Below the pieces are notes generated by a model. It worked only from the letters and a program-made list of their open reading frames with translations, did no database searches and was not told the origin of the DNA. Both the position numbers and the translations under genes were made by a program. From Bolinopsis microptera (Eukaryota > Ctenophora > Tentaculata > Lobata > Bolinopsidae): DNA of 64,000 bases. The DNA lies in assembly GCF_026151205.1 (NCBI RefSeq), contig NC_087074.1:20143240-20207239 (forward strand). Direction: 5' to 3'. Shown here piece by piece: positions 34,779 through 60,485 of this stretch (positions are counted from its first letter, which is position 1; each line of letters opens with the position of its first letter).

Positions 34779-35060
34779 CACGCTCGCATATATATATATA
34801 TCCACGCAGTCTAGCGGGCGGAAATTTTTATCGCCCGCGTCCTCGCGGCGATATAATATATGTCCTCGAGGGCACACAGCCCGAGGACGACATATCTCCG
34901 TATAGCCCGGAGGGCCCGTAATTGGGCCCGAGTGCTATACGGAATTCCGCCTGCAAGGCGAGTAGGATATGTATTATATCCACCAGCGGGCGCTTGTAAT
35001 TGTATAAAAGTCAACTATAGACAAGATCGCCACTATAAATTGTTGTATCCATGGAATTAA
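34779..35060. mobile_element. hairpin element, partial copy 1
   Basis: Contains the modules described in full at 56000: an ATATGTC...GACATAT hairpin with inner GGGC/GCCC stem (34856-34893), a CGTATAGC...GCTATACG hairpin with inner GGGCCC stem (about 34900-34942), the end block TATATCCACCAGCGGGCG (34976-34993), then GTATAAAAGTCAACTATAG and GTCGCCACT. Loop sequences differ from the 56-kb copy while stems are kept. Confidence 0.8.
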
Positions 35061-35180: not shown

Positions 35181-35361
35181 GAAATTACCAAGGAGAACAC
35201 TAACGAACTCGTTTTGGCTATACATCAATTCATAAATACGTTCAGATATAAAACAAAAGCCGAATAAAAGTATGAAAATAAAATCTTAAAATTTAACCGC
35301 GTTACAATATCACGAAGTGGAAATAAAATCAAATATAATAACATAAACCCGCCACGCAAAG

Positions 35362-35490
35362 GGTTTATATAACAGATCATCCCGCGCTAGCGGGATGATC
35401 TGATAAACCATAAACACATACGAGTGCGCGCAGCGCACGAGTTTTGTGTTAATATGTAATCCCGAAGCGCCAGCTGAGGGATTACATTTA
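35362..35490. repeat. cluster of three short hairpins
   Basis: CAGATCATCCCGC / GCGGGATGATCTG with GCTA loop (35373-35402), enclosed by GGTTTAT...ATAAACC; then GTGCGCGCAGCGCAC; then GTAATCCC...GGGATTAC (about 35455-35487). Confidence 0.75.
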
Positions 35491-35748
35491 TTTTAATTTA
35501 GCCCTGAGCGTGAAGTGTTTATGGATTATAATTATCTCCGGCGATTTCGACAAGGGATTTATACTTTAGAAGAGAGTGATAAAATAGTTTTTATTTCGGA
35601 ATACGGGTCTGATTTTAGTAATATTTTCATTTCTATTTGTGATGGTGATAACAAGTGATACGATAACGTACTAACAGTAGTAAATTAAGAATAAGATTAA
35701 GTAGCACAATTGAAGTTATACCGGTTAAACAAGCAATAGAAAATATAT

Positions 35749-40892: not shown

Positions 40893-43607
40893 ATGAATAA
40901 CCAAAAGTGGAGTGACTCTCGGAGTTCAAGGAGGGGTGTAGCCAGGATGAAGTACTCTGGGCAAAGCCGCAAGGACCCCAGTGTGCAGATGAGAACAAAG
41001 AAGTCGCCTTATTTCAACAGTGTTATTAGTTCACAGCATATCACTCATGTGGACCCGGAGAAGGGGAGAGCACTCCCATGCAACTTTATCAAACACAGCA
41101 TTAATGTGGGAACGTGGAATGTGTTATCATTGGAGAGCAGTTCCTCAAAGCTGTATGAATTGTCACAGAATATGTCAGCATATAAAATGGATGTCTTGGG
41201 GCTGACTGAGACGCACAGACCCGGCACTGGTGAGGTTACCTTGGATGATGGGTCCCTCTTTATTAACTCAGGAAGAAGTGATGGGTACAGACGACAAGGG
41301 GTAGGTTTAGTCCTCTCGAAGAAGACTAAAAATTCATTGATTTCATACAGTCCGATATCAGAACGTATTCTTGCAGCGAGGCTGCACAGTCGACATATCA
41401 ACATTTCGATTGTGATAGCTTATGCTCCAACTGAGGATGCAGCAGTCGGGGTAAAGGATGACTTTTATCAGCAGCTATCTGGGGCATTTGATGAACTACC
41501 AGCTCATGACGTGAAGTTTTTACTTGGAGATCTAAATGCTCGCATTGGCCAAGATAACTCAGCTTGGTCCGGTGTGATTGGTAAGCATTCCCTTCACGTT
41601 TCATCAAATGACAACGGCCTTCGACTATTAGATTTCTGTGCATTGCATCAACTGACAATCGGTGGGACGCTTTTCCAGCATCGTGATATTCATAAAGGAA
41701 GTTGGAAGTCTCCAGATGGCCGCACAGTAAATCAGATTGACCATGTCTGTATTTCTACCAAGTGGAGTCACTCTCTACTTGACGTAAGATCATGCAGGGG
41801 TGCAGACATTGGCTCCGATCATTATTTGGTTCGGGGTCAATTTAGAGTCAAACTTATGGCAGTTCAAAAAATGAACGCCTCTCGTAGGAAATCTCCAGCA
41901 ATTGAGAATCTTAGAGATCAGTCCAAGGTTGAAGAGTACTGCATTGCTCTTCAAAATCGTTTTAGCTGCCTACCAATGGAGGAGAATCTTGATGGAGAAT
42001 GGACATTAGTTAAGGATACTATTAAAGAAGTGTCTATGGAGGTACTGGGTGAGCGCCCCCGGCGCAGAAAGCAGCAGCATTTGTCTCAGGAGACAAAAAG
42101 CCTTATTGCAGAACGCAGTAAGATTAAACAGATGGCGCCTAGTGACAAAAACAATAGGAGCGAGTATTCTCGGGCCAACAAACTTGTCAAAAAGAGCTGC
42201 AGGAAAGACGACGAGAATTGGGCTCTTAGAGTTGCAGCAGATCTGGAAACAGCTGCTGTCCATGGCCGGCAAAGGGAAGTCTGGCAACGGATAAAAACAC
42301 TGTCCGGTAAGAAGAATCGAAAATCAACTGCTGTAAGAGACAAATCCGGGAAGTTGATTGCTGATCCCTCTGCTCAGAGAGAGAGATGGGGAGAACATTT
42401 TTCGGAGCTATTAAACCCTCCTCCCACGAATGCGGATCTGTCTGACCTGGACCATCTTGAAGTGGTTCCATGCTTTCCGTATCTTGGTGATGGTGATGGT
42501 CCCCCCACTAGACTTGAGATTTTAAACTGTCTCAAAAAATTGAAGAACCACAAAAGTGCTGGGATTGACGAAATCTCTAATGAGCAGTTAAAGTATGGGG
42601 CAAGTGGTCTTGTGGATAGGATGGAGAAATTGTTCTCTAAAGTTTGGAATTCAGAAGCAGTGCCTGACGACTGGTTGAAAGGCATCGTGATAATTGTACC
42701 AAAGAAGGGTGATACCTCTCATTGCTCCAATAATAGGGGGATCACTTTAAGATCTACAGCATCGAAACTGTATCAAATCATCATTTTACAACGCATGAGT
42801 GACGGTTTAGAAAGTTTGCTACGAGACAATCAGTGTGGGTTCAGAAAGAACAGATCATGCATTGATCAGATTTATTCACTCCGCACTATTATACATAACT
42901 GCATTGAATATAATCTCCCCCTGTATGTAAATTTTGTGGACTTCAAGGCAGCTTTTGATTCTATCGACAGGAATTATATTTGGAAAGCTTTCAGTCATTA
43001 TGGCCTGCCATGTAAATACATTCGAATAATACAGGCATTTTTTAATGGAACTGTCAGTGCTGTTAGACACAATGGTGAACTATCAGAATGGTTTGAAGTA
43101 AGTTCAGGCAGTGGCCAAGGAGACATTCAGGGTCCCCCACTTTTTAATGTCTGCCTCAATGTGGCTGCTGAGAGAACAGAAAGCAACAAAGTGGTGTCTC
43201 ACGGAGCGGTTCTTCAAAGATCTATCAGTCCGCTTGTTGATGATATCACTGTGTTAGATACAGACTATGCAGATGACATGGCTGTACTGGATAACAGCGA
43301 GGAAGGTCTTCAAGAAACAACTGACCTTTTGTGTATGTATGGTGCCCAGGGAGGTCTCAGAATCAATGGTAAAAAGACTGAGGCTATGGTCATTGGTAAA
43401 GCAACCTCTCAACGGCCATACACGAAAGAAGCCACAGTGAACATCACTGTTGAAGACACGCCAGTGCAGCAAGTTAGTGACTTTACGTACTTAGGTACAA
43501 TTATTTCCAGCGACGGTACTATCGACCGTGAGCTGTCAGCTAGGATTCAGAAAGCTTCCGGAGCCTTCAATCAACTGAGTAATATATGGAAAAACCGCAA
43601 CATCTAG
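40893..43607 (+). CDS. LINE family X endonuclease/reverse transcriptase
   Basis: 904 residues. Endonuclease residues ~70-315: GTWNVLS (75), LTETH with catalytic Glu (104-108), AYAPTEDA, LLGDLNARIG (~210), IDHVCIS, SDHY (308-311). RT follows: IVIIVPKKGDT, NQCGFRKNRSCIDQI, motif A FVDFKAAFDSID (Asp ~683), GSGQGDIQGPP, catalytic YADD at 792-795. It nicks target DNA and primes reverse transcription of its own RNA. It ends at TAG 43605-43607, where the sister copy at 48640 has CAG; the frame continues after it to 44099. A single C-to-T nonsense change therefore removes the last ~165 residues here. Homologues are often mis-annotated as craniofacial development protein 2. Confidence 0.9.
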   Translation: MNNQKWSDSRSSRRGVARMKYSGQSRKDPSVQMRTKKSPYFNSVISSQHITHVDPEKGRALPCNFIKHSINVGTWNVLSLESSSSKLYELSQNMSAYKMDVLGLTETHRPGTGEVTLDDGSLFINSGRSDGYRRQGVGLVLSKKTKNSLISYSPISERILAARLHSRHINISIVIAYAPTEDAAVGVKDDFYQQLSGAFDELPAHDVKFLLGDLNARIGQDNSAWSGVIGKHSLHVSSNDNGLRLLDFCALHQLTIGGTLFQHRDIHKGSWKSPDGRTVNQIDHVCISTKWSHSLLDVRSCRGADIGSDHYLVRGQFRVKLMAVQKMNASRRKSPAIENLRDQSKVEEYCIALQNRFSCLPMEENLDGEWTLVKDTIKEVSMEVLGERPRRRKQQHLSQETKSLIAERSKIKQMAPSDKNNRSEYSRANKLVKKSCRKDDENWALRVAADLETAAVHGRQREVWQRIKTLSGKKNRKSTAVRDKSGKLIADPSAQRERWGEHFSELLNPPPTNADLSDLDHLEVVPCFPYLGDGDGPPTRLEILNCLKKLKNHKSAGIDEISNEQLKYGASGLVDRMEKLFSKVWNSEAVPDDWLKGIVIIVPKKGDTSHCSNNRGITLRSTASKLYQIIILQRMSDGLESLLRDNQCGFRKNRSCIDQIYSLRTIIHNCIEYNLPLYVNFVDFKAAFDSIDRNYIWKAFSHYGLPCKYIRIIQAFFNGTVSAVRHNGELSEWFEVSSGSGQGDIQGPPLFNVCLNVAAERTESNKVVSHGAVLQRSISPLVDDITVLDTDYADDMAVLDNSEEGLQETTDLLCMYGAQGGLRINGKKTEAMVIGKATSQRPYTKEATVNITVEDTPVQQVSDFTYLGTIISSDGTIDRELSARIQKASGAFNQLSNIWKNRNI

Positions 43608-44099
43608 TCTTATACAAAGATCAGGATTTATAAGGCAGCGGTTTTGACAATATTGTTATATGGTAGTGAGGTTTGGAACACAACCAAAAAGCAGCTACAT
43701 CGCTTTGAGGTGTTCCATCAGCGTTGCTTGAGGAGAATACTTAGGATAAGATGGCTCGATCGGGTTAGAAACACTGAAGTGCTGGAGCGTGCAAAGATAA
43801 ATCCAGTAGAGACGTTCATAGGAGCAAACCGCCTGCGTTGGTTTGGCCATGTCACCAGAATGCCAGACACTAGGCTTCCTAAGTACCTGCTTAACTGGAC
43901 CCCTGCGCATGGGAGAAGATCTAGGGGCCGTCCAAGAAAGAACTGGATGAAATGTTTGCTGGAAGATGCTGCAGCGTTTACAGGAAACACTGACATAGAC
44001 CTAGAAGGAGCGAGCGAGATGGCTAGTGACCGAAAACTTTGGAGGGAGATGATACGTCACAAACGGGAGTTCATTGGTGCAGGCCACTCGAATGATTGA
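43608..44099 (+). pseudogene. LINE family X ORF C-terminus after nonsense codon
   Basis: Same frame as the preceding ORF. Encodes YGSEVWNTTKKQLHRFEVFH, RCLRRILRIRW, RLRWFGHVTRMPDTRLPKY and GRRSRGRPRKNWM, the characteristic C-terminal region of RTE-like LINEs. The ATG at 43644 is probably not a real start. Confidence 0.85.
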
Positions 44100-44138
44100 G
44101 GAGACCTAATCAAGTACAAGTACAAGTAAGTATGTTGG

Positions 44139-48612: not shown

Positions 48613-50787
48613 TACTTACCTGTACTTGATTAGGTCTCCTCAATCATTCGAGTGGCCTGCACCAATGAACTCCCGTTTGTGACGTATCATCTCCCTCCAA
48701 AGTTTTCGGTCACTAGCCATCTCGCTCGCTCCTTCTAGGTCTATGTCAGTGTTTCCTGTAAACGCTGCAGAATCTTCCAGCAAACATTTCATCCAGTTCT
48801 TTCTTGGACGGCCCCTAGATCTTCTCCCATGCGCAGGGGTCCAGTTAAGCAGGTACTTAGGAAGCCTAGTGTCTGGCATTCTGGTGACATGGCCAAACCA
48901 ACGCAGGCGGTTTGCTCCTATGAACGTCTCTACTGGATTTATCTTTGCACGCTCTAGCACTTCAGTGTTTCTAACCCGATTGAGCCATCTTATCCTAAGT
49001 ATTCTCCTCAAGCAACGCTGATGGAACACCTCAAAGCGATGTAGCTGCTTTTTGGTTGTGTTCCAAACCTCACTACCATATAACAATATTGTCAAAACCG
49101 CTGCCTTATAAATCCTGATCTTTGTATAAGACTGGATGTTGCGGTTTTTCCATATATTACTCAGTTGATTGAAGGCTCCGGAAGCTTTCTGAATCCTAGC
49201 TGACAGCTCACGGTCGATAGTACCGTCGCTGGAAATAATTGTACCTAAGTACGTAAAGTCACTAACTTGCTGCACTGGCGTGTCTTCAACAGTGATGTTC
49301 ACTGTGGCTTCTTTCGTGTATGGCCGTTGAGAGGTTGCTTTACCAATGACCATAGCCTCAGTCTTTTTACCATTGATTCTGAGACCTCCCTGGGCACCAT
49401 ACATACACAAAAGGTCAGTTGTTTCTTGAAGACCTTCCTCGCTGTTATCCAGTACAGCCATGTCATCTGCATAGTCTGTATCTAACACAGTGATATCATC
49501 AACAAGCGGACTGATAGATCTTTGAAGAACCGCTCCGTGAGACACCACTTTGTTGCTTTCTGTTCTCTCAGCAGCCACATTGAGGCAGACATTAAAAAGT
49601 GGGGGACCCTGAATGTCTCCTTGGCCACTGCCTGAACTTACTTCAAACCATTCTGATAGTTCACCATTGTGTCTAACAGCACTGACAGTTCCATTAAAAA
49701 ATGCCTGTATTATTCGAATGTATTTACATGGCAGGCCATAATGACTGAAAGCTTTCCAAATATAATTCCTGTCGATAGAATCAAAAGCTGCCTTGAAGTC
49801 CACAAAATTTACATACAGGGGGAGATTATATTCAATGCAGTTATGTATAATAGTGCGGAGTGAATAAATCTGATCAATGCATGATCTGTTCTTTCTGAAC
49901 CCACACTGATTGTCTCGTAGCAAACTTTCTAAACCGTCACTCATGCGTTGTAAAATGATGATTTGATACAGTTTCGATGCTGTAGATCTTAAAGTGATCC
50001 CCCTATTATTGGAGCAATGAGAGGTATCACCCTTCTTTGGTACAATTATCACGATGCCTTTCAACCAGTCGTCAGGCACTGCTTCTGAATTCCAAACTTT
50101 AGAGAACAATTTCTCCATCCTATCCACAAGACCACTTGCCCCATACTTTAACTGCTCATTAGAGATTTCGTCAATCCCAGCACTTTTGTGGTTCTTCAAT
50201 TTTTTGAGACAGTTTAAAATCTCAAGTCTAGTGGGGGGACCATCACCATCACCAAGATACGGAAAGCATGGAACCACTTCAAGATGGTCCAGGTCAGACA
50301 GATCCGCATTCGTGGGAGGAGGGTTTAATAGCTCCGAAAAATGTTCTCCCCATCTCTCTCTCTGAGCAGAGGGATCAGCAATCAACTTCCCGGATTTGTC
50401 TCTTACAGCAGTTGATTTTCGATTCTTCTTACCGGACAGTGTTTTTATCCGTTGCCAGACTTCCCTTTGCCGGCCATGGACAGCAGCTGTTTCCAGATCT
50501 GCTGCAACTCTAAGAGCCCAATTCTCGTCGTCTTTCCTGCAGCTCTTTTTGACAAGTTTGTTGGCCCGAGAATACTCGCTCCTATTGTTTTTGTCACTAG
50601 GCGCCATCTGTTTAATATTACTGCGTTCTGCAATAAGGCTTTTTGTCTCCTGAGACAAATGCTGCTGCTTTCTGCGCCGGGGGCGCTCACCCAGTACCTC
50701 CATAGACACTTCTTTAATAGTATCCTTAACTAATGTCCATTCTCCATCAAGATTCTCCTCCATTGGTAGGCAGCTAAAACGATTTTG
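48613..50787 (-). mobile_element. LINE family X, minus-strand 5'-truncated copy
   Basis: 2175 bp, flanked by the 10-bp duplication AAGTTCACAG (48603-48612 and 50788-50797; CTGTGAACTT on the element strand). 5' truncation begins inside the endonuclease-RT linker, as expected for target-primed reverse transcription. Tail AAGTACAGGTAAGTA. Confidence 0.9.
48640..50787 (-). CDS. LINE family X reverse transcriptase, intact but 5'-truncated
   Basis: About 715 codons with no stop: RT domain with FVDFKAAFDSID and YADD, and the full C-terminal RLRWFGHVTRMPD...RGRPRKNWM region. Compared by eye with the plus copy at 41947-44099 I found only four base differences in coding sequence (giving K/N, stop/Q, D/N, A/S), so the two copies are very recent relatives. 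It lacks the endonuclease, so cannot be autonomous. Upstream it reads in frame into LINE Y ORF1 sequence, which is a fusion by insertion, not a native N-terminus. Confidence 0.85.
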   Translation of the reverse strand, partial: QNRFSCLPMEENLDGEWTLVKDTIKEVSMEVLGERPRRRKQQHLSQETKSLIAERSNIKQMAPSDKNNRSEYSRANKLVKKSCRKDDENWALRVAADLETAAVHGRQREVWQRIKTLSGKKNRKSTAVRDKSGKLIADPSAQRERWGEHFSELLNPPPTNADLSDLDHLEVVPCFPYLGDGDGPPTRLEILNCLKKLKNHKSAGIDEISNEQLKYGASGLVDRMEKLFSKVWNSEAVPDDWLKGIVIIVPKKGDTSHCSNNRGITLRSTASKLYQIIILQRMSDGLESLLRDNQCGFRKNRSCIDQIYSLRTIIHNCIEYNLPLYVNFVDFKAAFDSIDRNYIWKAFSHYGLPCKYIRIIQAFFNGTVSAVRHNGELSEWFEVSSGSGQGDIQGPPLFNVCLNVAAERTESNKVVSHGAVLQRSISPLVDDITVLDTDYADDMAVLDNSEEGLQETTDLLCMYGAQGGLRINGKKTEAMVIGKATSQRPYTKEATVNITVEDTPVQQVSDFTYLGTIISSDGTIDRELSARIQKASGAFNQLSNIWKNRNIQSYTKIRIYKAAVLTILLYGSEVWNTTKKQLHRFEVFHQRCLRRILRIRWLNRVRNTEVLERAKINPVETFIGANRLRWFGHVTRMPDTRLPKYLLNWTPAHGRRSRGRPRKNWMKCLLEDSAAFTGNTDIDLEGASEMASDRKLWREMIRHKREFIGAGHSND

Positions 50788-50797
50788 AAGTTCACAG

Positions 50798-51064: not shown

Positions 51065-51500
51065 GTATAGAAATGTGATGTACGTGTATATATCCACCAG
51101 CGGGCTATATTTTGTCTTCTGACCTCTCGCAGCCCGATGTAACAAGACACAGTGCGCGTCCAGCCCGCTTAAAATACAGCACGCGAGCAGACGACAGTTA
51201 ACGTGACAAGTAACAATACAGCCCGGAGCACTTTCACTTTCAAACAAATTTTTGGGGCCTAAACTATTAAACTTTAACTATTACAAGACACGTACACCAT
51301 ATTTATGTCACTGACACTACATCTTAATGGTTCCCACGGCTCAAGGAATGCACTACCTATATCACTTATCGGCCTCAGTCCCTATACCACGCAGTGCAAT
51401 ATGATTGGCTGACATTGAACACGTGACGTGTTACCATGGTTGCAACAATTAGTGGCGACTTTAAGTCTAGAGTTGATGTTTATACAGTATACACCATACA
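51065..51500 (-). mobile_element. hairpin element, copy 2 (minus strand)
   Basis: Read on the minus strand, 51500 to 51065 matches the interior and right end of the element at 56440-57793: GTATAAACATCAACTCTAGA, GTCGCCACT, ACCATGGTAACACGTCACGT, GCCAATCAT, GCATTCCTTGAGCCGTG, GCTCCGGGCTGTATTG, AGCGGGCTGG, CCGCTGGTGGATATAT. It lacks the hAT insertion found in the 56-kb copy and so gives the empty site. It lies just 5' of the LINE Y ORF1 remnant and could have served as its promoter. Confidence 0.75.
51404..51425. promoter_or_regulatory. E-box / CCAAT pair in hairpin element
   Basis: ATTGG (inverted CCAAT) at 51404-51408 and CACGTG at 51420-51425, preserved in the 56-kb copy. Confidence 0.4.
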
Positions 51501-51742
51501 CGCTCCATTGTTTATTTCAACTGATTTACATTTCCATAATTGCTCAATACAAGCTATTTCGAGTAATAATTCTTAAACTTTTAGGCCGGAATTTTACGTG
51601 TAATTCTATTGTGTTCCCGAAAGAAATTTTGCCCTGTTTTTTGTTTTGAAACTATACCGTCTACCACTAATATTGATGTTATGAATTTGATCTTTTACTC
51701 AACGTAAAATATATATTTATTCCTAAAGGGATTGCAGATCAG

Positions 51743-54598
51743 ATGAAGTACGTTTCCCCTATACATGACATTACACTCCAGGATTCCATCCAGAATCTCA
51801 TGTACTATACTGGTTCAAGGATCCTAGACCTCCTCATACTCTACTACACCACATGGACTGGAAAACAAAGTTCTATGTATTATTCCAATCTTGCTAAGTT
51901 GGAAAAGCACTGCTCACAGGTTGAACTTCAATCTTACAGAAGATTACTCAACATCCAACTTGCCAGAGAACAGGATAGAGCCAATCTAACAAAAGCATCC
52001 AAGCTCCATAGAGATCAGCATGTTGTCAACTGCAGTTACACAAGTTGCTCCCAAACACCACCCTTACCACAATCCCATGCAGAAAAAAGGAGTTTCAATC
52101 GCAGAAAGAAGATGAACAGGGCCAACACAAATAGAAGAATACACAGGAAGAGCAAGCATGCTCAGCTACACGGACAAGTCCCATCTATTGAGACAATAGA
52201 TCCTAACAAACTGAGCCACGCAGTCATCAACCTATCAACCAAGATCCAAGAGGTAACACCACACCAACTCTTCCTCTTCTATCTAGGGAAATCTTTTGCA
52301 CCAACACCTGCATTACCAGATTATTCCAAGTTCAGACTGAACATTCTTCAGTTCGCCTACAAGCTTAGATGGGCATGGTTTTGGCACACACAACCCCAGC
52401 CAAAAGCAACACCTCCGACCATTGCAGCGATAAAAAGTATGGAAAGAACCCTCATTAAGTCGGATGAAACTAAGCCTTTAAAAGTATGCAATAACCACTG
52501 TTTAGAGCTTTACATAGAGAGAGTAACAAAAGACCTGTTACAAACAAACAGCTCTACCAGATCTAAGCTTCCTGACAATATCCCAGTAGAATCCAGAAAA
52601 GCCTTATCAGATATGGCAAAGTGGAAAGATGTTGTCATCAGACCAGCTGACAAAGGTTCACAATACTTCTTTTTAGACCGAGAAGACTACATCAAGAGGG
52701 TTAAAGAACACCTAGATGCAGAAACCTTTGACACTGTTCAGAAAGAAGAAGCCGAGCATGCTACAAAGCTAGCAATTTCAGATTGGATAGCAAAGTATCA
52801 AGAAGAACCTGGTTTAACGGAAAAGGTCTACCAATGGGTTACACCTGATGACTTTTGTAAGCCCGGGAACAACTATGTCAACCCCAAAGCACACAAGCCA
52901 GAGAAGAACTACCCTGGTCGTATGATTAGCACAGGATGCGCATCAGCAATCAAGAATCTCTCTGCACTTACAGCGTATGAGCTTACTAAGGTTGATCTAA
53001 AATATGCCATCCAGGACAATAATCATATACTAAGAAAACTCGATGACTTGAATAACTCTAAATCCCTTGAGGGCAAGACAGTTATTCACGCATCCTTTGA
53101 CATAGAGGCTATGTTCCCGAGTATCCAAAAGGAGGTAGGATTGGAACAATGTAGGCTCCATTTAGACAAGAGAGAGGACCCAATACTCTCTACAGATTGT
53201 ATAATAGATGCCTTAGAGACAACTCTAGACAACAACATAACAGAGTTTGAAGGTGTCATATACAAGCAGAAAAAAGGAACTGCAATGGGACCAAAGAACG
53301 CTTGTGCTTATGCAGATACAGCCATCGACAAGATAGACAGAGATGTCATGGAAGGGACTTGGAGCCACCCTCCTCTCCTATGGGCCAGATACCGCGATGA
53401 TGTGTATGTCCCTTGGACCCATGGACAGGAAATGCTCGAGGAATTCCACTTGTGGCTCAATTCTAGAATGCCAGGCATAAAATTCACGTTAAAAGCTTCA
53501 TTAGAGGGCACTGAATTCTTAGACACTTTTATATACATGAAAGCAGGCCAACTACATACCAAACCTTACAGTAAGCCATGTGATGACCATGCCTTCCTAG
53601 TTCCCACCTCTTGCCATCCTACACATACCATAAAAAACATACCTTATAGCACTGCACTTAGAATCTTTAAACTTACTTCTGAGCATGATGAGTACATACA
53701 AGCACGAGCACAATACACAAGCTATCTTGTGGCAAGAGGTTATAGCAATAGCTTAATTAACCAGGCCTTTAATAAAGTGGAAACCAAGAGCAGGCTCTCC
53801 TACTATCAACAACAGAGACATAAGGAGGATGACAGTAGCAAAGGGAGACTCATTCCCCTTGTAACAGATTTCAACCCAGGTCTCCCCAACATAGGACGGA
53901 TACTTAACTCCCACAAGCACATCCTCCGTCTAGATCTCGAGCTTTGCAAGGTGATTGACCCTGATGGTATTTTCACCTCTTTTAGAGGGACAAAAACACT
54001 TCATGAGATTCTTATTCATAGCAAACTCCCTCCTGTTGAAGAGCCAGCTGTAGAAGATCCAGGCCACGCCTCTCCAGACACAGCTGAGGATTCTGATTCT
54101 GGAGGTTGCTTCCCTTGTGCTAAGAAATGTGATCTCTGCAAAAACTTCCTGAAACCATCAACCACAATCGGCAGTTTCCACACCAACCAAGTATTCAGTA
54201 TCAAAGGACGATTGGACTGTGATACCAAAAATGTTGTGTACATAGTTAATGATAATATTTGTAAGTTAAGTTATATAGGATGTACTTCAGACTCTTTAAA
54301 GGTTAGATTTAGGAACCATAAATCCCACATTAAAACTCAAAGAAGGACATGTGAACTTTCCTGCCATTTTATAGATAATGAGATTTTGCACAATCTTGAC
54401 CGTACAACCACTAAGTTGTTTACCAGTACTTTAAGTAAGGACATTAATGTTTCTATTATAGAGCAAGTTGACGTTGGGAATTTTGAGCAATGTGCCCAGG
54501 ATAGACTAAGTATTTGTAAACAAAGGGAGAACTTTTGGCAAAACCAGCTTAAAACTTTAAAGCACTTTGGAGGGATGAACGTTAGAGAAGAAAGATGA
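51743..54598 (+). CDS. Penelope-like element reverse transcriptase with GIY-YIG endonuclease
   Basis: 951 residues, uninterrupted. Region before RT: FYLGKSFAPTPALPDYSKF, then WKDVVIRPADKGSQ (the DKG block). RT: NYVNPKAHKPEKNYPGRMIS, motif A FDIEAMFPSI, motif B KKGTAMGPKNACAYAD, catalytic YRDD at ~550-553, and EFLDTFIYM / SCHPTHTIKNIPY. A Cx2Cx3Cx2C zinc motif at ~789-799 (CFPCAKKCDLC) precedes the GIY-YIG endonuclease: VYIV (~832), YIG (~844), RFRNHKS, and catalytic Glu in QRENFWQNQL. This is the canonical endonuclease-bearing Penelope-like architecture. PLE proteins nick target DNA and reverse transcribe in situ. Intactness suggests a young copy. I saw no clear flanking pseudo-LTRs; start chosen as the first ATG. 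Confidence 0.95.
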   Translation: MKYVSPIHDITLQDSIQNLMYYTGSRILDLLILYYTTWTGKQSSMYYSNLAKLEKHCSQVELQSYRRLLNIQLAREQDRANLTKASKLHRDQHVVNCSYTSCSQTPPLPQSHAEKRSFNRRKKMNRANTNRRIHRKSKHAQLHGQVPSIETIDPNKLSHAVINLSTKIQEVTPHQLFLFYLGKSFAPTPALPDYSKFRLNILQFAYKLRWAWFWHTQPQPKATPPTIAAIKSMERTLIKSDETKPLKVCNNHCLELYIERVTKDLLQTNSSTRSKLPDNIPVESRKALSDMAKWKDVVIRPADKGSQYFFLDREDYIKRVKEHLDAETFDTVQKEEAEHATKLAISDWIAKYQEEPGLTEKVYQWVTPDDFCKPGNNYVNPKAHKPEKNYPGRMISTGCASAIKNLSALTAYELTKVDLKYAIQDNNHILRKLDDLNNSKSLEGKTVIHASFDIEAMFPSIQKEVGLEQCRLHLDKREDPILSTDCIIDALETTLDNNITEFEGVIYKQKKGTAMGPKNACAYADTAIDKIDRDVMEGTWSHPPLLWARYRDDVYVPWTHGQEMLEEFHLWLNSRMPGIKFTLKASLEGTEFLDTFIYMKAGQLHTKPYSKPCDDHAFLVPTSCHPTHTIKNIPYSTALRIFKLTSEHDEYIQARAQYTSYLVARGYSNSLINQAFNKVETKSRLSYYQQQRHKEDDSSKGRLIPLVTDFNPGLPNIGRILNSHKHILRLDLELCKVIDPDGIFTSFRGTKTLHEILIHSKLPPVEEPAVEDPGHASPDTAEDSDSGGCFPCAKKCDLCKNFLKPSTTIGSFHTNQVFSIKGRLDCDTKNVVYIVNDNICKLSYIGCTSDSLKVRFRNHKSHIKTQRRTCELSCHFIDNEILHNLDRTTTKLFTSTLSKDINVSIIEQVDVGNFEQCAQDRLSICKQRENFWQNQLKTLKHFGGMNVREER

Positions 54599-54860
54599 TT
54601 TTCTTCTTGCATATTCTATTTTCTCACCTCTACCACTCATTTGGGATTTCAACCCACCATAACTTGAATTGCTGAGTTACAAAAATTTCTAAATTTTAAA
54701 TTTCTTTTATTTGATTGATTGATGGATTGATATGTTGAATAAATTTACTAACATGTCTTTATATCAGGATGACTGTAAAGGTACATTTTACCGACATTTG
54801 AAGTCAAGGCGTTGTTTTACTGATAGTTGTGGCTAACTAATAATATATATATATATTTTT

Positions 54861-55007
54861 CAGTTTATTCAGATTTTTCGTTTTCGATATTGCAAATTTT
54901 TAATAAATCATGTTCAGATTATGGTGATAATGGATGTAAAGGTACTTCAACCGAATTAACAATCCAACCGTGTGTATGACGTGTCCCAGTAGCCAATCAT
55001 AATATAT
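54861..55007. repeat. 147-bp direct repeat, copy 1
   Basis: Starts CAGTTTATTCAGATTTTTCG and ends GTAGCCAATCATAATATAT. I find it identical base for base to 55398-55544, 537 bp away. Contains GACGTG and CCAAT. No coding potential. Confidence 0.9.
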
Positions 55008-55397
55008 GTATTTCTACCGGTGGCACATACTGGATGGCGGTTAGTTGAGTACACTACTCTCACAAGCATCTCGAGTCTCTCGGTGATCCTGCCTCCACAC
55101 CACACTCAGTCTGGACTCCCTTCCGGCCGACCGAACTATTTTCCTAATATCTCCTAATATAACTTTGATCGAACAAGCCTAAATTCATGATGCACTATAA
55201 ACTTGATTTGAGACAGAAATTTTAGACAATTTATCTGCTTACGTGTAATTTCAAACTCTTATCAGTTACCATGTCTTTTATCTAATTTTTATCAGCAGAT
55301 TTATAAATCTGCTGTTCATTTGTAGTTATTACCTTGCTAGTTATGAGTAAATTTTTGCCTTCCATCAATTGAGTGCAGCTTTCAGTTTTAAAATTTT

Positions 55398-55544
55398 CAG
55401 TTTATTCAGATTTTTCGTTTTCGATATTGCAAATTTTTAATAAATCATGTTCAGATTATGGTGATAATGGATGTAAAGGTACTTCAACCGAATTAACAAT
55501 CCAACCGTGTGTATGACGTGTCCCAGTAGCCAATCATAATATAT
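55398..55544. repeat. 147-bp direct repeat, copy 2
   Basis: Second copy of the repeat at 54861-55007, followed by an (AT)n tract. The intervening 390 bp has no gene. The pair lies 0.26-0.95 kb 3' of the Penelope-like ORF and may be part of its terminal repeats. Confidence 0.9.
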
Positions 55545-55549
55545 ATATA

Positions 55550-55999
55550 TATATATTCAATGTCCCTTCGTGCTTAGTTATCTTGAGCTCTCTTGGTAAC
55601 TGCAGATGGCATTCAGTTTATAGTTACACAGTTGTTAAAGTTATGGCGAGCACTCTTTTTGATAGTTACACACTGTGTACTGATTAACTCTCATTGTACA
55701 TCTGACGTGTTGTCATGGTAACAGGAATTCTGTGTTACTCGTAGTATGGATTGACGGAGATACACAATTTGTAATCTATGTTAATGATTAACATCCCGTT
55801 GACTGTTCATCAATATGGTTGGTGTGTAATACCATTATAGTACGTGGGATTTCAATTCTTCTATTGTGTTATATCATGTGTATATAATCAGTAATGTTGC
55901 CCTGTTCTGCATCTTACACCAAAAGCTAAAGCATGATTTTCTATTAAATTTGCAGCTTTAGTTCGAAATCTTTTACTTCTATTTGCTATGATTGTTGAA
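55550..55999. other. no gene recognised
   Basis: AT-rich, without tandem repeats or supported ORFs. Confidence 0.4.
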
Positions 56000-56006
56000 A
56001 ACTGTT

Positions 56007-56410
56007 AAGCGCCCGCTCATGGATATACACGATATCATTCCTCGCCATGAGGGCGGAACTATCGTATAGCACTCGGGCCCGTTGGGCCCTCCGTGCTATA
56101 CGAAAATATCTCCGCCTCGGGCTAGCGCCCTCGTGGAGATATAAAATATTGCACGCGCGTGCGCGTGCAATATTTAGTACCGCCCTCAAGGCTGCGGTGA
56201 TATCTATATATATACATATCACCGGAGACTCCCAGGCGGAACAAAATATTGCACGCGCACGCGCGTGCAATATTTCATATGTCCCCGAGGGCGCTAGCCC
56301 GAGGAGGACATATTTTCGTATAGCACGGAGGGCCCATCGGGCCCGAGTGCTATACGATTTTTCCGCCCGCGGGTCGAGGTGATGTGGATTATATCCACCA
56401 GCGGGCGTTT
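56007..56410. repeat. palindrome made of palindromes
   Basis: The two ~200-bp halves are near-perfect reverse complements (centre about 56210), and each half is a row of smaller hairpins. CGTATAGCAC/GTGCTATACG with an inner GGGCCC stem (56063-56102 and 56317-56356); ATATCTCC/GGAGATAT (56106-56142) and its counterpart ATATGTCC/GGACATAT (56277-56313), both with inner GGGC/GCCC; AAATATTGCACGC/GCGTGCAATATTT in each half (about 56145-56176 and 56244-56275). The outer arms are CGCCCGCT..TGGATATA and its inverse. Confidence 0.9.
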
Positions 56411-56456
56411 TACAGTTAATATATAATCTTATAAATAAACAATGGAGCTTGTACTC

Positions 56457-56545
56457 TTGTATAAAAGTCAACTCTAGAAAAGGTCGCCACTTATTATTGT
56501 AACCATGGTAACACGTCACGTGTTCAATGTAAGCCAATCATAAAG
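56457..56545 (+). promoter_or_regulatory. TATA box, E-box and CCAAT block of the hairpin element
   Basis: TTGTATAAAAGTC at about 56457, ACCATGGTAACACGTCACGTG with CACGTG at 56517-56522, and CCAAT at 56534-56538. The same order is kept in the 51-kb copy, and the TATA part in the 34.8-kb copy. Conservation among copies suggests a real pol II promoter, but no transcript can be shown. Confidence 0.4.
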
Positions 56546-56603
56546 GGCTGTGTCGTATATAGGGGCTGGAGATAAGAGATCCATACTGGCACTGCATTCC
56601 TGG

Positions 56604-57405
56604 CAGGCTTGTCCGCCGTGGCTAAATGGATCGGCGGCGGCGTTTCACTAAAATTACACCGGCGGCGGCGGCGTACGCCGGCGTGAGCCGTGAAATCAAG
56701 GCCAACTAAATTGAGGTCTATGAAATATGAATATGATCATGTACTTAATTTGGGTAATTTAGACTTAACTTCAACAATTAATGATGTTGGTATATTGTTA
56801 TGGTATTATCTACTATCAAATAAAAGTTGAGACAAATTGATACAATTATTTTATTTAAGGTAAAATAAATAAACAATAAATTATTGCTGAAATCAATCTC
56901 TCAATCTTTTTTGTTGGAAACAAAATCATAGTTTTTAGAACAAAACAGTGTATATTTGAAATTCTTAACATTCATCCTAGATCGCTGACTAGAAAGAATT
57001 AAACCTGCAGCCGACCAGGTTCTTTCAATTTCCGCACTACTGGCAGGTATACAATGCACTATTCTTACTATGTTTGAGAGTATTGGGAAAGTTTTTTGCC
57101 TATCGGCCCAAAATCTTAAAAGTTCGAATTGTAAAATTTCTTCTTCAGTCAAACTTATGAGTAGGTATCTGCTCAGTTCTTCTGATAATCAATATTGTTA
57201 AGTTAGCTAAAGGTGTGTATCATGTGTGTGTTGCCCCTAGCCGCTAATCGCTATCAGTAACTCTGATATCTTCAAATGAAGACAGAATTATTTTGAAGTC
57301 AGAAAATGCACGCCGTACGCCGATGTACGCCGGGGTGTATCGGCGGCGTTCGGCGTGGCAAAATCACCCGGCGGCGGCGGCGTTCGGCGGCGGCGGACAA
57401 GCCTG
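56604..57405 (-). mobile_element. hAT transposon remnant, 802 bp
   Basis: Terminal inverted repeats CAGGCTTGTCCGCCG (15 bp perfect) with GC-rich CGG-repeat subterminal regions. Flanks ATTCCTGG (56596-56603) and ATTCCTCG (57406-57413) match at 7 of 8 positions. The uninterrupted target (GCATTCCTTGAGCCGTG) exists in the hairpin element copy at 51.3 kb, read on the minus strand. An internal deletion left only the transposase C-terminus. Confidence 0.85.
56901..57152 (-). pseudogene. hAT transposase C-terminal dimerisation domain
   Basis: 83 codons: LLRFWADRQKTFPILSNIVR, then CIPASSAEIERTWSAAG and LSSQRSRMNVKNFKYTLFC. This is the hATC dimerisation signature (FW...FP.L, IPxSSAxxER.WS..G, R..L/M). 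The DDE catalytic core and BED zinc finger are missing, so it is not functional as a transposase. Confidence 0.85.
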
Positions 57406-57741
57406 ATTCCTCGGCCGTGAGAATAATGAATGTAATGTCAGTGACGATGAATATCAATAATAGGGGGATTATTATAGTGCTGATGTGTATTGTATGTAGT
57501 GTGTTATAATAACTTTGATATAAATCAAAGTATCATGTCATCTGCTCACGAGCTGCATGAGCAGCCCTACCAGACACAAAAATAAAATATACATATCTCC
57601 GTGCTATGAAAATATTTTAAAGAACTCCGGGCTATATTGCTACTGGTCAAATTAAATGTCACTTGTTAGCGGGCTATATCATGAGCGGGCTGTAGAGATA
57701 TCGGGCCCTGTGACAGCGGGCTGGTGAGAGCCCGCTATGCG

Positions 57742-57793
57742 AAAAAGCGCACGCTGGTGGATATATAATTATATCCACCAGCGTGAGCTTTTT
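57742..57793. repeat. hairpin, 24-bp arms, 1 mismatch
   Basis: Arms 57742-57765 and 57770-57793 (AAAAAGCGCACGCTGGTGGA... and its inverse), loop TAAT. Right end of the hairpin element. Confidence 0.85.
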
Positions 57794-60112: not shown

Positions 60113-60261
60113 GAAACTACAGTTAGTGTTACACTAATTAGCACACTGTACGATTATTGCAATTGAATTCATCGTTAATGAATTAAACCGGTTTCAACTA
60201 TAGTTCTAAGTAACTTTTAAGTTGTTGTCTTATGGAATTTCACATGGAGACGATACAAAAA

Positions 60262-60485
60262 CTGAAAATATTTTAGAGAACTCCGGGCTATCATATTGCT
60301 GCTGGTCAAATTAAATGTCACTTGTTAGCGGGCTATATCATGAGCGGGCTGTAGAGATATCGGGCCCTTTGACAGCGGGCTGGTGAGAGCCCGCTATGCG
60401 AAAAAGCGCACGCTGGTGGATATAATCCACATCACCTCGACGCGCGGGCGGAAAAATCGTATAGCACTCGGGCCCTCCGTGCTAA
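60262..60485. mobile_element. hairpin element, rearranged partial copy 3
   Basis: 60262-60424 closely matches 57608-57766 (GAGAACTCCGGGCTAT, AGCGGGCTATATCATGAGCG, GCGCACGCTGGTGGATATA). It then runs directly into an inverted piece of the left module (ATCCACATCACCTCGACG, CGGAAAAATCGTATAGCAC...), in which the inner GGGCCC stem-loop has been shortened. The end lies next to a LINE fragment. Confidence 0.8.

Follow-up and report, generated by a model that had tools for sequence, protein, structure and literature searches.

The 404-bp nested palindrome at positions 56007 to 56410 of a 64,000-nucleotide stretch of the Bolinopsis microptera genome (the window) is probably where two non-autonomous Crypton derivatives, inserted in a TA run, meet tail to tail. 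Its halves are the 3' ends of two non-coding mobile elements, each with a closing stem and three arms, and the palindrome is nested because two inversely oriented elements meet at TATATATA. The large palindrome of the window is accounted for in this way as an element junction. We also consider it likely, on the comparisons below, that the halves are Crypton 3' ends whose fold would serve as a cis-acting folded-DNA end for the recombinase.

Two elements joined at a TA run

The arms of the palindrome, 56040-56209 and 56210-56379, are 88% complementary with a spacer of 0. With RNA parameters, the 404 nt fold at -317.6 kcal/mol, compared to -139 +/- 6 kcal/mol for 100 shuffles (z -28), and the best structure at this value is the two halves pairing with each other. 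When the right half was folded alone with DNA parameters, the separate arms formed (z -8.7), and 0 of 200 shuffles were as good. An earlier note on this DNA had described an inverted repeat of about 400 bp whose halves are chains of hairpins. The complementarity and the fold scores confirm this, and the hairpins it placed at 56106-56142 and 56277-56313 agree with P3 of the left and right half. It had treated the 404 bp as one unit; solo halves exist, which makes the palindrome a junction and rules out a single element. The features of the junction and its surroundings are as follows.

51089..51716, plus strand: 5' part of element B, a non-autonomous Crypton, with 5' terminus TATATCCACCAGCGGGC (from the L009 comparison)
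51717..55537, plus strand: later insertions within B, foreign to the element (a Penelope-like retroelement and a further repeat at 54857-55537)
55538..56208, plus strand: 3' part of element B (from the L009 comparison)
56007..56208, plus strand: 3'-terminal cloverleaf of B (P1, 56047-56056 with 56180-56188; P2, 56063-56102; P3, 56106-56142; P4, 56144-56175)
56205..56214, no strand: TA run common to both 3' termini, the tail-to-tail junction, TATATATA
56210..56410, minus strand: 3'-terminal cloverleaf of A (P4, 56244-56275; P3, 56277-56313; P2, 56317-56356; P1, 56363-56371 with 56231-56239)
56205..56573, minus strand: 3' portion of element A (95.9% to the L015 unit)
56604..57405, no strand: hAT-like insertion within A, foreign to the element, with CAGGCTTGTCCGCCG inverted at both ends
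57406..57774, minus strand: 5' portion of element A, ending at TATATCCACCAGCGTGCGC (86.9% to the L015 unit)

Element B was delimited by comparison with a copy elsewhere, L009, where the counterparts of 51089-51716 (97%) and 55538-56212 (93%) are directly continuous and the TA tract is uninterrupted. L009 has a unit of 1306 bp; the B copy in the window is a unit of this type, interrupted. The Penelope-like open reading frame at 51743-54598 is nested in B, and its reverse transcriptase and GIY-YIG parts do not belong inside the element's own ends. Ownership of the hairpins by the Penelope-like element was rejected, since its copies elsewhere stop at about 54856 and the frame is missing from L009. 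The frame encodes 951 aa with RVT_1 and GIY-YIG matches below the cut-offs; its near-identical copies have various start residues and most reach the end of the frame, as if 5'-truncated. Elsewhere in the window, 41949-44122 and 48617-50790 form a 2174-nt inverted repeat (100%, rounded) within two reverse transcriptase reading frames, and this repeat looks recent.

Type A units are about 740-795 bp long. The insertion at 56604-57405 that interrupts the window's copy has an 8-bp near-duplicate, ATTCCTGG/ATTCCTCG, and we take it to be a member of the hAT superfamily. In the window's A cloverleaf, the final part of P1 is altered. Solo copies of this cloverleaf are 98-99% identical to the window's A end. 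At 60231-60475, A fragments are joined at an inverted copy of the 17-bp A terminus to a remnant of an A cloverleaf, which looks as if the 5' end had recombined with the subterminal repeat.

The earlier note's reading would have suffered from a lack of further copies, but such copies are numerous. With 40 of 231 candidates scored, a search of the source genome (264.65 Mb) with the 404-bp query gave at least 87 matches; in many cases a single place was hit on both strands. The 16-mer ATATCCACCAGCGGGC, which sits at 5' ends and inside 3' ends, has 203 exact copies in the genome compared to 0 for the reversed control, and the core of P3 has 201. The same-orientation matches listed are mostly single halves at 98-99% identity. 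On the terminal side of these halves there is a TA run and then unrelated sequence; on the other side is a common body. Near-identical solo copies sit in TA runs, and copies in TATATA runs occur singly as well as in head-to-tail and tail-to-tail arrangements. In L080 and L085, a B copy has a Crypton in its TA tract.

We counted what follows each 3' terminus by scanning all fetched sequence and merging identical contexts into one. Other sequence follows 31 termini, an inverted 3' end follows 6 and CCACCAGCG follows 5; because of the merging, these counts do not cover the tandem copies L017 and L019 or another A-A join, which lies on C11. The 6 termini with an inverted neighbor come from three loci (the window, L002 and L003), two per locus. 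Since L002 (C4:9140057) has the window's interruption of A, it seems to duplicate the window locus, and we did not treat it as an independent junction. Of the 5 termini before CCACCAGCG, 4 are followed by a 5' end and 1 (L004) by an inverted subterminal copy.

A Crypton recombinase between matching ends

An autonomous element of about 3.2 kb with B-type 5' and 3' ends was found on the minus strand of L080. B and this element have in common only the first 154 bp (96%) and the last 206 bp (97.6%, measured between the B end of L009 and the autonomous copy), so that the non-autonomous B keeps only the two ends. The corresponding values for A are 69% over 146 bp at the 5' end and 84% over 205 bp at the 3' end. 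L080 has three open frames of at least 120 codons, all on the recombinase strand. The first has no Pfam match. The other two gave a Phage_integrase match (E 1e-6, 29.1 bits, above the cut-off of 27.1) and a weak DUF3504 match below the cut-off (E 0.0024), and no reverse transcriptase or DDE transposase was present among them. The tyrosine recombinase is split over several open frames, from which introns were deduced.

A query with the last exon gave 12 matches, and 6 loci were fetched. Of the tyrosine recombinase signature R...HxxR...H/W...Y, the residues RxxR...GH...Y are present in all 6 recombinase loci; where HxxR normally has histidine, the residue is arginine, and the distal R, in another exon, was placed by eye. 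Four loci are near-identical copies, and each has a B-type end (4/4); one of them has a stop, apparently upstream of the exon start. A copy with 62% identity has an A-type end, 98% identical to A; its frame has stops, and no 5' end was found in the sequence read. For the remaining copy, at 60% identity, there is no cloverleaf within 1500 bp. In the two comparable types, a different recombinase comes with a different end. Since this recombinase lies between matching ends, the elements are Cryptons and their non-autonomous derivatives. The earlier note had suggested a transposase or Rep recognition structure; a transposase recognition structure is close, as the enzyme found is a Crypton tyrosine recombinase and not a Rep.

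The stretch upstream of the last exon, stops included, is kept in all 4 near-identical copies. Therefore, these autonomous copies did not move as spliced RNA.

Another identity weighed was that of Helentron or Helitron2 relatives (HINEs), which have subterminal inverted repeats. No ordinary terminal inverted repeat was seen in the elements here, but A carries its 17-bp 5' terminus inverted about 200 bp inside its 3' end, as such a relative might; the 3' hairpins and tandem copies also fit. However, the enzyme between the ends is a tyrosine recombinase and not Rep/Hel, the target is TATATA and not TT, and the inverted repeat is about 200 bp from the end instead of 38-60 bp. On C2 to C6, no Helitron_like_N hit was within 50 kb of any of the terminus matches listed, and no Rep/Hel copy with these ends was seen. 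Given the recombinase between the ends and the lack of co-location with PF14214 among the listed places, this identity was rejected as extremely improbable. Separately, three Helitron_like_N hits of equal score lie 10-12 kb apart in the same orientation (G000:C11:3834408, 3846209 and 3856595) and are possibly tandem Helitrons. No phage record matched the 404-bp sequence.

At the 5' ends of the A/B group, AGCCCG/CGGGCT words number 3-5, compared to about 0.05 in shuffles, and the 5' and 3' ends may therefore be read differently. A tandem repeat of Crypton-type 5' end units, without a cloverleaf in the stretch read, was noticed at L082 (G000:C1:10736200-10739700). In this region of C1, six Crypton-type 5' end matches are about 1513-1520 bp apart, and L082 seems to be a satellite grown from a Crypton end.

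The fold within and between Crypton families

P3 reads ATATCTCC/GGAGATAT in the left half (B, 56106-56142) and ATATGTCC/GGACATAT in the right half (A, 56277-56313). Covariation was scored on 17 aligned A/B/C ends. These remained from 19 ends of fetched loci after L052 (P4 deleted) and L054 (truncated) were dropped; the near-identical A copies were represented by L015, with L012 and L055 left out. In the alignment, 91.2% of cells pair, compared to at most 57.2% when slid. The covariation score was 0.085 versus 0.035 +/- 0.005 in shuffles, with 0 of 500 as high, and cells with a two-sided change numbered 24 versus 8.2 +/- 2.2. Of the 53 pairs, 7 contain such changes, and the long-range closing stem accounts for 2 of the 7. 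The count of pairs with two-sided change, 7 compared to 5.2 +/- 1.3 shuffled, is unexceptional (68 of 500 as high). The number of further pair types, 15 compared to 13.6, is also unexceptional (114 of 500). That counterpart hairpins stay paired while their sequence changes, as the earlier note had it, is borne out by the two-sided changes. Taken alone, covariation in A/B/C appears moderate, because the changes mostly separate three subfamilies and so stand for few independent events; the comparison between families carries the weight.

The fold could act as RNA, for example as a 3' untranslated structure of the recombinase messenger, and the earlier note had likewise proposed a structured transcript end. 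The fold does lie downstream of the gene in those autonomous copies read that have it. Yet it is kept in the non-coding A and B, and the 4 near-identical copies keep the stretch with stops, with its deduced introns, upstream of the last exon. No Rfam family matched in the window at the gathering score, and a known RNA family was rejected on this ground. The stems have G.T in 9 cells and A.C in 17, 9 of the latter at one mis-specified pair that subfamily C pairs differently, so in these small numbers there is no excess of G.T over A.C and no bias toward an RNA strand. We give a role as RNA little probability.

Five of the last-exon matches are 32-34% identical to the query and adjoin DUF3504 hits (two on C3 and one each on C12, C1 and C4). 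L091 (C3) and L092 (C12) are one family, D, 98% alike in the downstream part, and L094 (C1) is family E. A closing stem and three arms are predicted in L091 (z -10.5) and in L094 (z -8.5), compared to z -7.8 for the L080 cloverleaf, and L092 folds like L091. L093 (C4, 34% identical to the query exon) has one unrelated palindrome and no cloverleaf in 1.1 kb. BLAST of the A/B/C group against D and E gave nothing better than an E value of about 0.1, while D and E are about 71% identical over about 80 nt. Two further cloverleaves are in the window itself.

34789..34995, minus strand: cloverleaf of subfamily C (77% to the right half)
35329..35543, minus strand: cloverleaf of family E (P2, 35454-35487; P3, 35413-35450; P4, 35373-35402; 93% over 207 nt to L094)

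The first of these shows that the partial copy seen earlier at 34.86 kb is real and is a third subfamily, C, for which no autonomous copy was found. Because distant families have the same architecture with no detectable sequence similarity, it is the fold, and not the sequence, that is conserved across these Crypton families. The earlier suggestion that the folded form is selected, as part of a mobile element end, is supported, as pairing survives two-sided changes and the architecture recurs without sequence similarity.

The genome has 14 DUF3504 hits, some of which may be Crypton-derived host genes, and 8 of the 14 were read downstream in part. A cloverleaf was found in 3 (L091, L092 and L094, two of one family), a single hairpin of the same core in 1 (L096) and an unrelated palindrome in 1 (L093), and the 450-700 bp downstream of L095, L097 and L098 showed nothing. 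At a hit outside these 8, C1:14643638, the core pattern is 1,073 bp downstream. L096 (G000:C7:11499350-11500050) is one long hairpin with tip CTCGTGCC...GGCACTCG and the TC layout described below, without the three-arm end. In counts of the P3 core, which are not counts of whole folds, CTCGTGC...GCACTCG occurs 341 times in the genome and CTCGGGC...GCCCTCG 201 times, compared to 1 for each reversed control.

The arms also have unpaired bases at fixed places. On the plus strand of the right half, GA faces GA in a 2x2 loop in P3 and in a GGA/GA (3x2) loop in P2, just as had been noted for two hairpin types; on the gene-sense strand of the elements, these loops read TC/TC (P3) and TC/TCC (P2). Representatives of all five families have TC on both sides of the inner stem in arms 1 and 2, immediately preceding the stem on one side and following it with no gap or a gap of one base on the other. 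No pairing of this TC is predicted in A, B, D and E, while the best predicted fold of subfamily C shifts the register of P3 so that its TC pairs. The representatives of every family lack such a TC in arm 3, which is a perfect stem in A, D and E and in L009, a B copy; a single mismatch interrupts it in L080, and in C it has a bulge of one base. Several C copies are without the tip of P2.

Hairpin arms are homogenized by quasi-palindrome correction and template switching, and pairing could be kept by mutation in this way. The loss of P2 tips in L048, L049 and L050 shows that these hairpins are prone to copying errors. Homogenization should erase mismatches, yet the representatives of all five families have TC in matching positions of arms 1 and 2 and none in arm 3. 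The closing stem is long-range, and non-coding elements retain complete ends, which also argue against this explanation. We consider it quite improbable.

A different reading is that the arms are ordinary double-stranded binding sites, inverted repeats with arms of about 10-15 bp and a short spacer of the kind that tyrosine recombinases bind. Pairing would then be a by-product of dimer sites. Recombinase sites described so far consist of a pair of inverted repeats, each 11-13 bp, around 6-8 bp, according to an excerpt of PMC3212892. GGGC/GCCC cores recur in the arms of A, B and C, and the 5' ends of this group have the AGCCCG/CGGGCT words noted above (3-5 versus about 0.05 shuffled), all as this reading would have it. 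However, within one element the three arms have different sequences; between the two family groups the outer stems diverge while pairing is retained; and the closing stem joins segments that lie about 130 nt from each other. TC is unpaired beside the inner stems of A, B, D and E even though the stems differ. Taken together, these points make double-stranded sites rather unlikely.

A proposed mechanism and known systems

We propose that the recombinase excises a Crypton as a DNA circle, with an expected junction of GGTGATAT(G/C)TATATATCCACC, and that this circle would then recombine into TATATA. TA runs at both ends, an uninterrupted copy and head-to-tail joins are seen in the sequence. A second copy could join the end of the first in either orientation, because the TATATA crossover is its own reverse complement, and a tail-to-tail join would give the nested palindrome. 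The fold would be a cis-acting DNA structure, either extruded hairpins or a single strand, and the recombinase or its assembly would most likely recognize it. The TC loops (GA on the other strand), present in two arms and lacking in the third, may give the end its polarity. That Crypton tyrosine recombinases act on a folded DNA cloverleaf, single-stranded or extruded, as an attC-like site outside bacteria that is kept across Crypton families while its sequence turns over, is a broader and more doubtful proposal, which we put forward tentatively. The conserved fold is a concrete candidate site for how Cryptons recognize their ends. It also offers a structure-based way to find Crypton boundaries and non-autonomous copies, and it enables a test of shape-reading by tyrosine recombinases outside bacteria.

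In the literature searched, which comprised titles, the starts of abstracts and an excerpt of PMC3212892, no Crypton 3' fold is described. Like animal Cryptons (CryptonA and CryptonI), these elements have a tyrosine recombinase, with DUF3504-type relatives in the same genome, and non-autonomous copies that keep only the two ends. An example is the non-autonomous CryptonI-1N1_RPro, which keeps 438 bp at the 5' end and 260 bp at the 3' end in the account of Kojima and Jurka (2011; excerpt of PMC3212892). In contrast to the animal Cryptons of that excerpt, which are said there to have no terminal repeats, the elements here have a 3' cloverleaf of about 200 nt across families with unrelated sequence, and their target is a TA run.

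Helentron/HINE and DINE-1 elements, as described in excerpts of PMC4067079 and PMC5148889, resemble the elements here in their asymmetric inverted terminal segments, 3' hairpin and abundant non-coding copies; they differ in their Rep/Hel enzyme, a 3' repeat 38-60 bp from the end and a TT target. AT-rich targets and tandem copies are likewise found with Penelope-like elements (excerpt of PMC11167929); the one in the window's B is a later insertion whose copies end before the hairpins.

A further comparison is with the attC sites of integrons, whose shape is recognized by the tyrosine recombinase IntI and whose folded stem-loop has unpaired bases that set the choice of strand (excerpt of PMC2727003). 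attC belongs to bacterial gene cassettes and is a stem-loop, whereas the site here has a closing stem and three arms and is a candidate for such recognition and strand choice. As in attC and IntI, there is a tyrosine recombinase, poor conservation of the site sequence and a folded structure. That structure is kept without its sequence, with unpaired bases at fixed places: TC in arms 1 and 2 of five families, with P3 re-paired in C.
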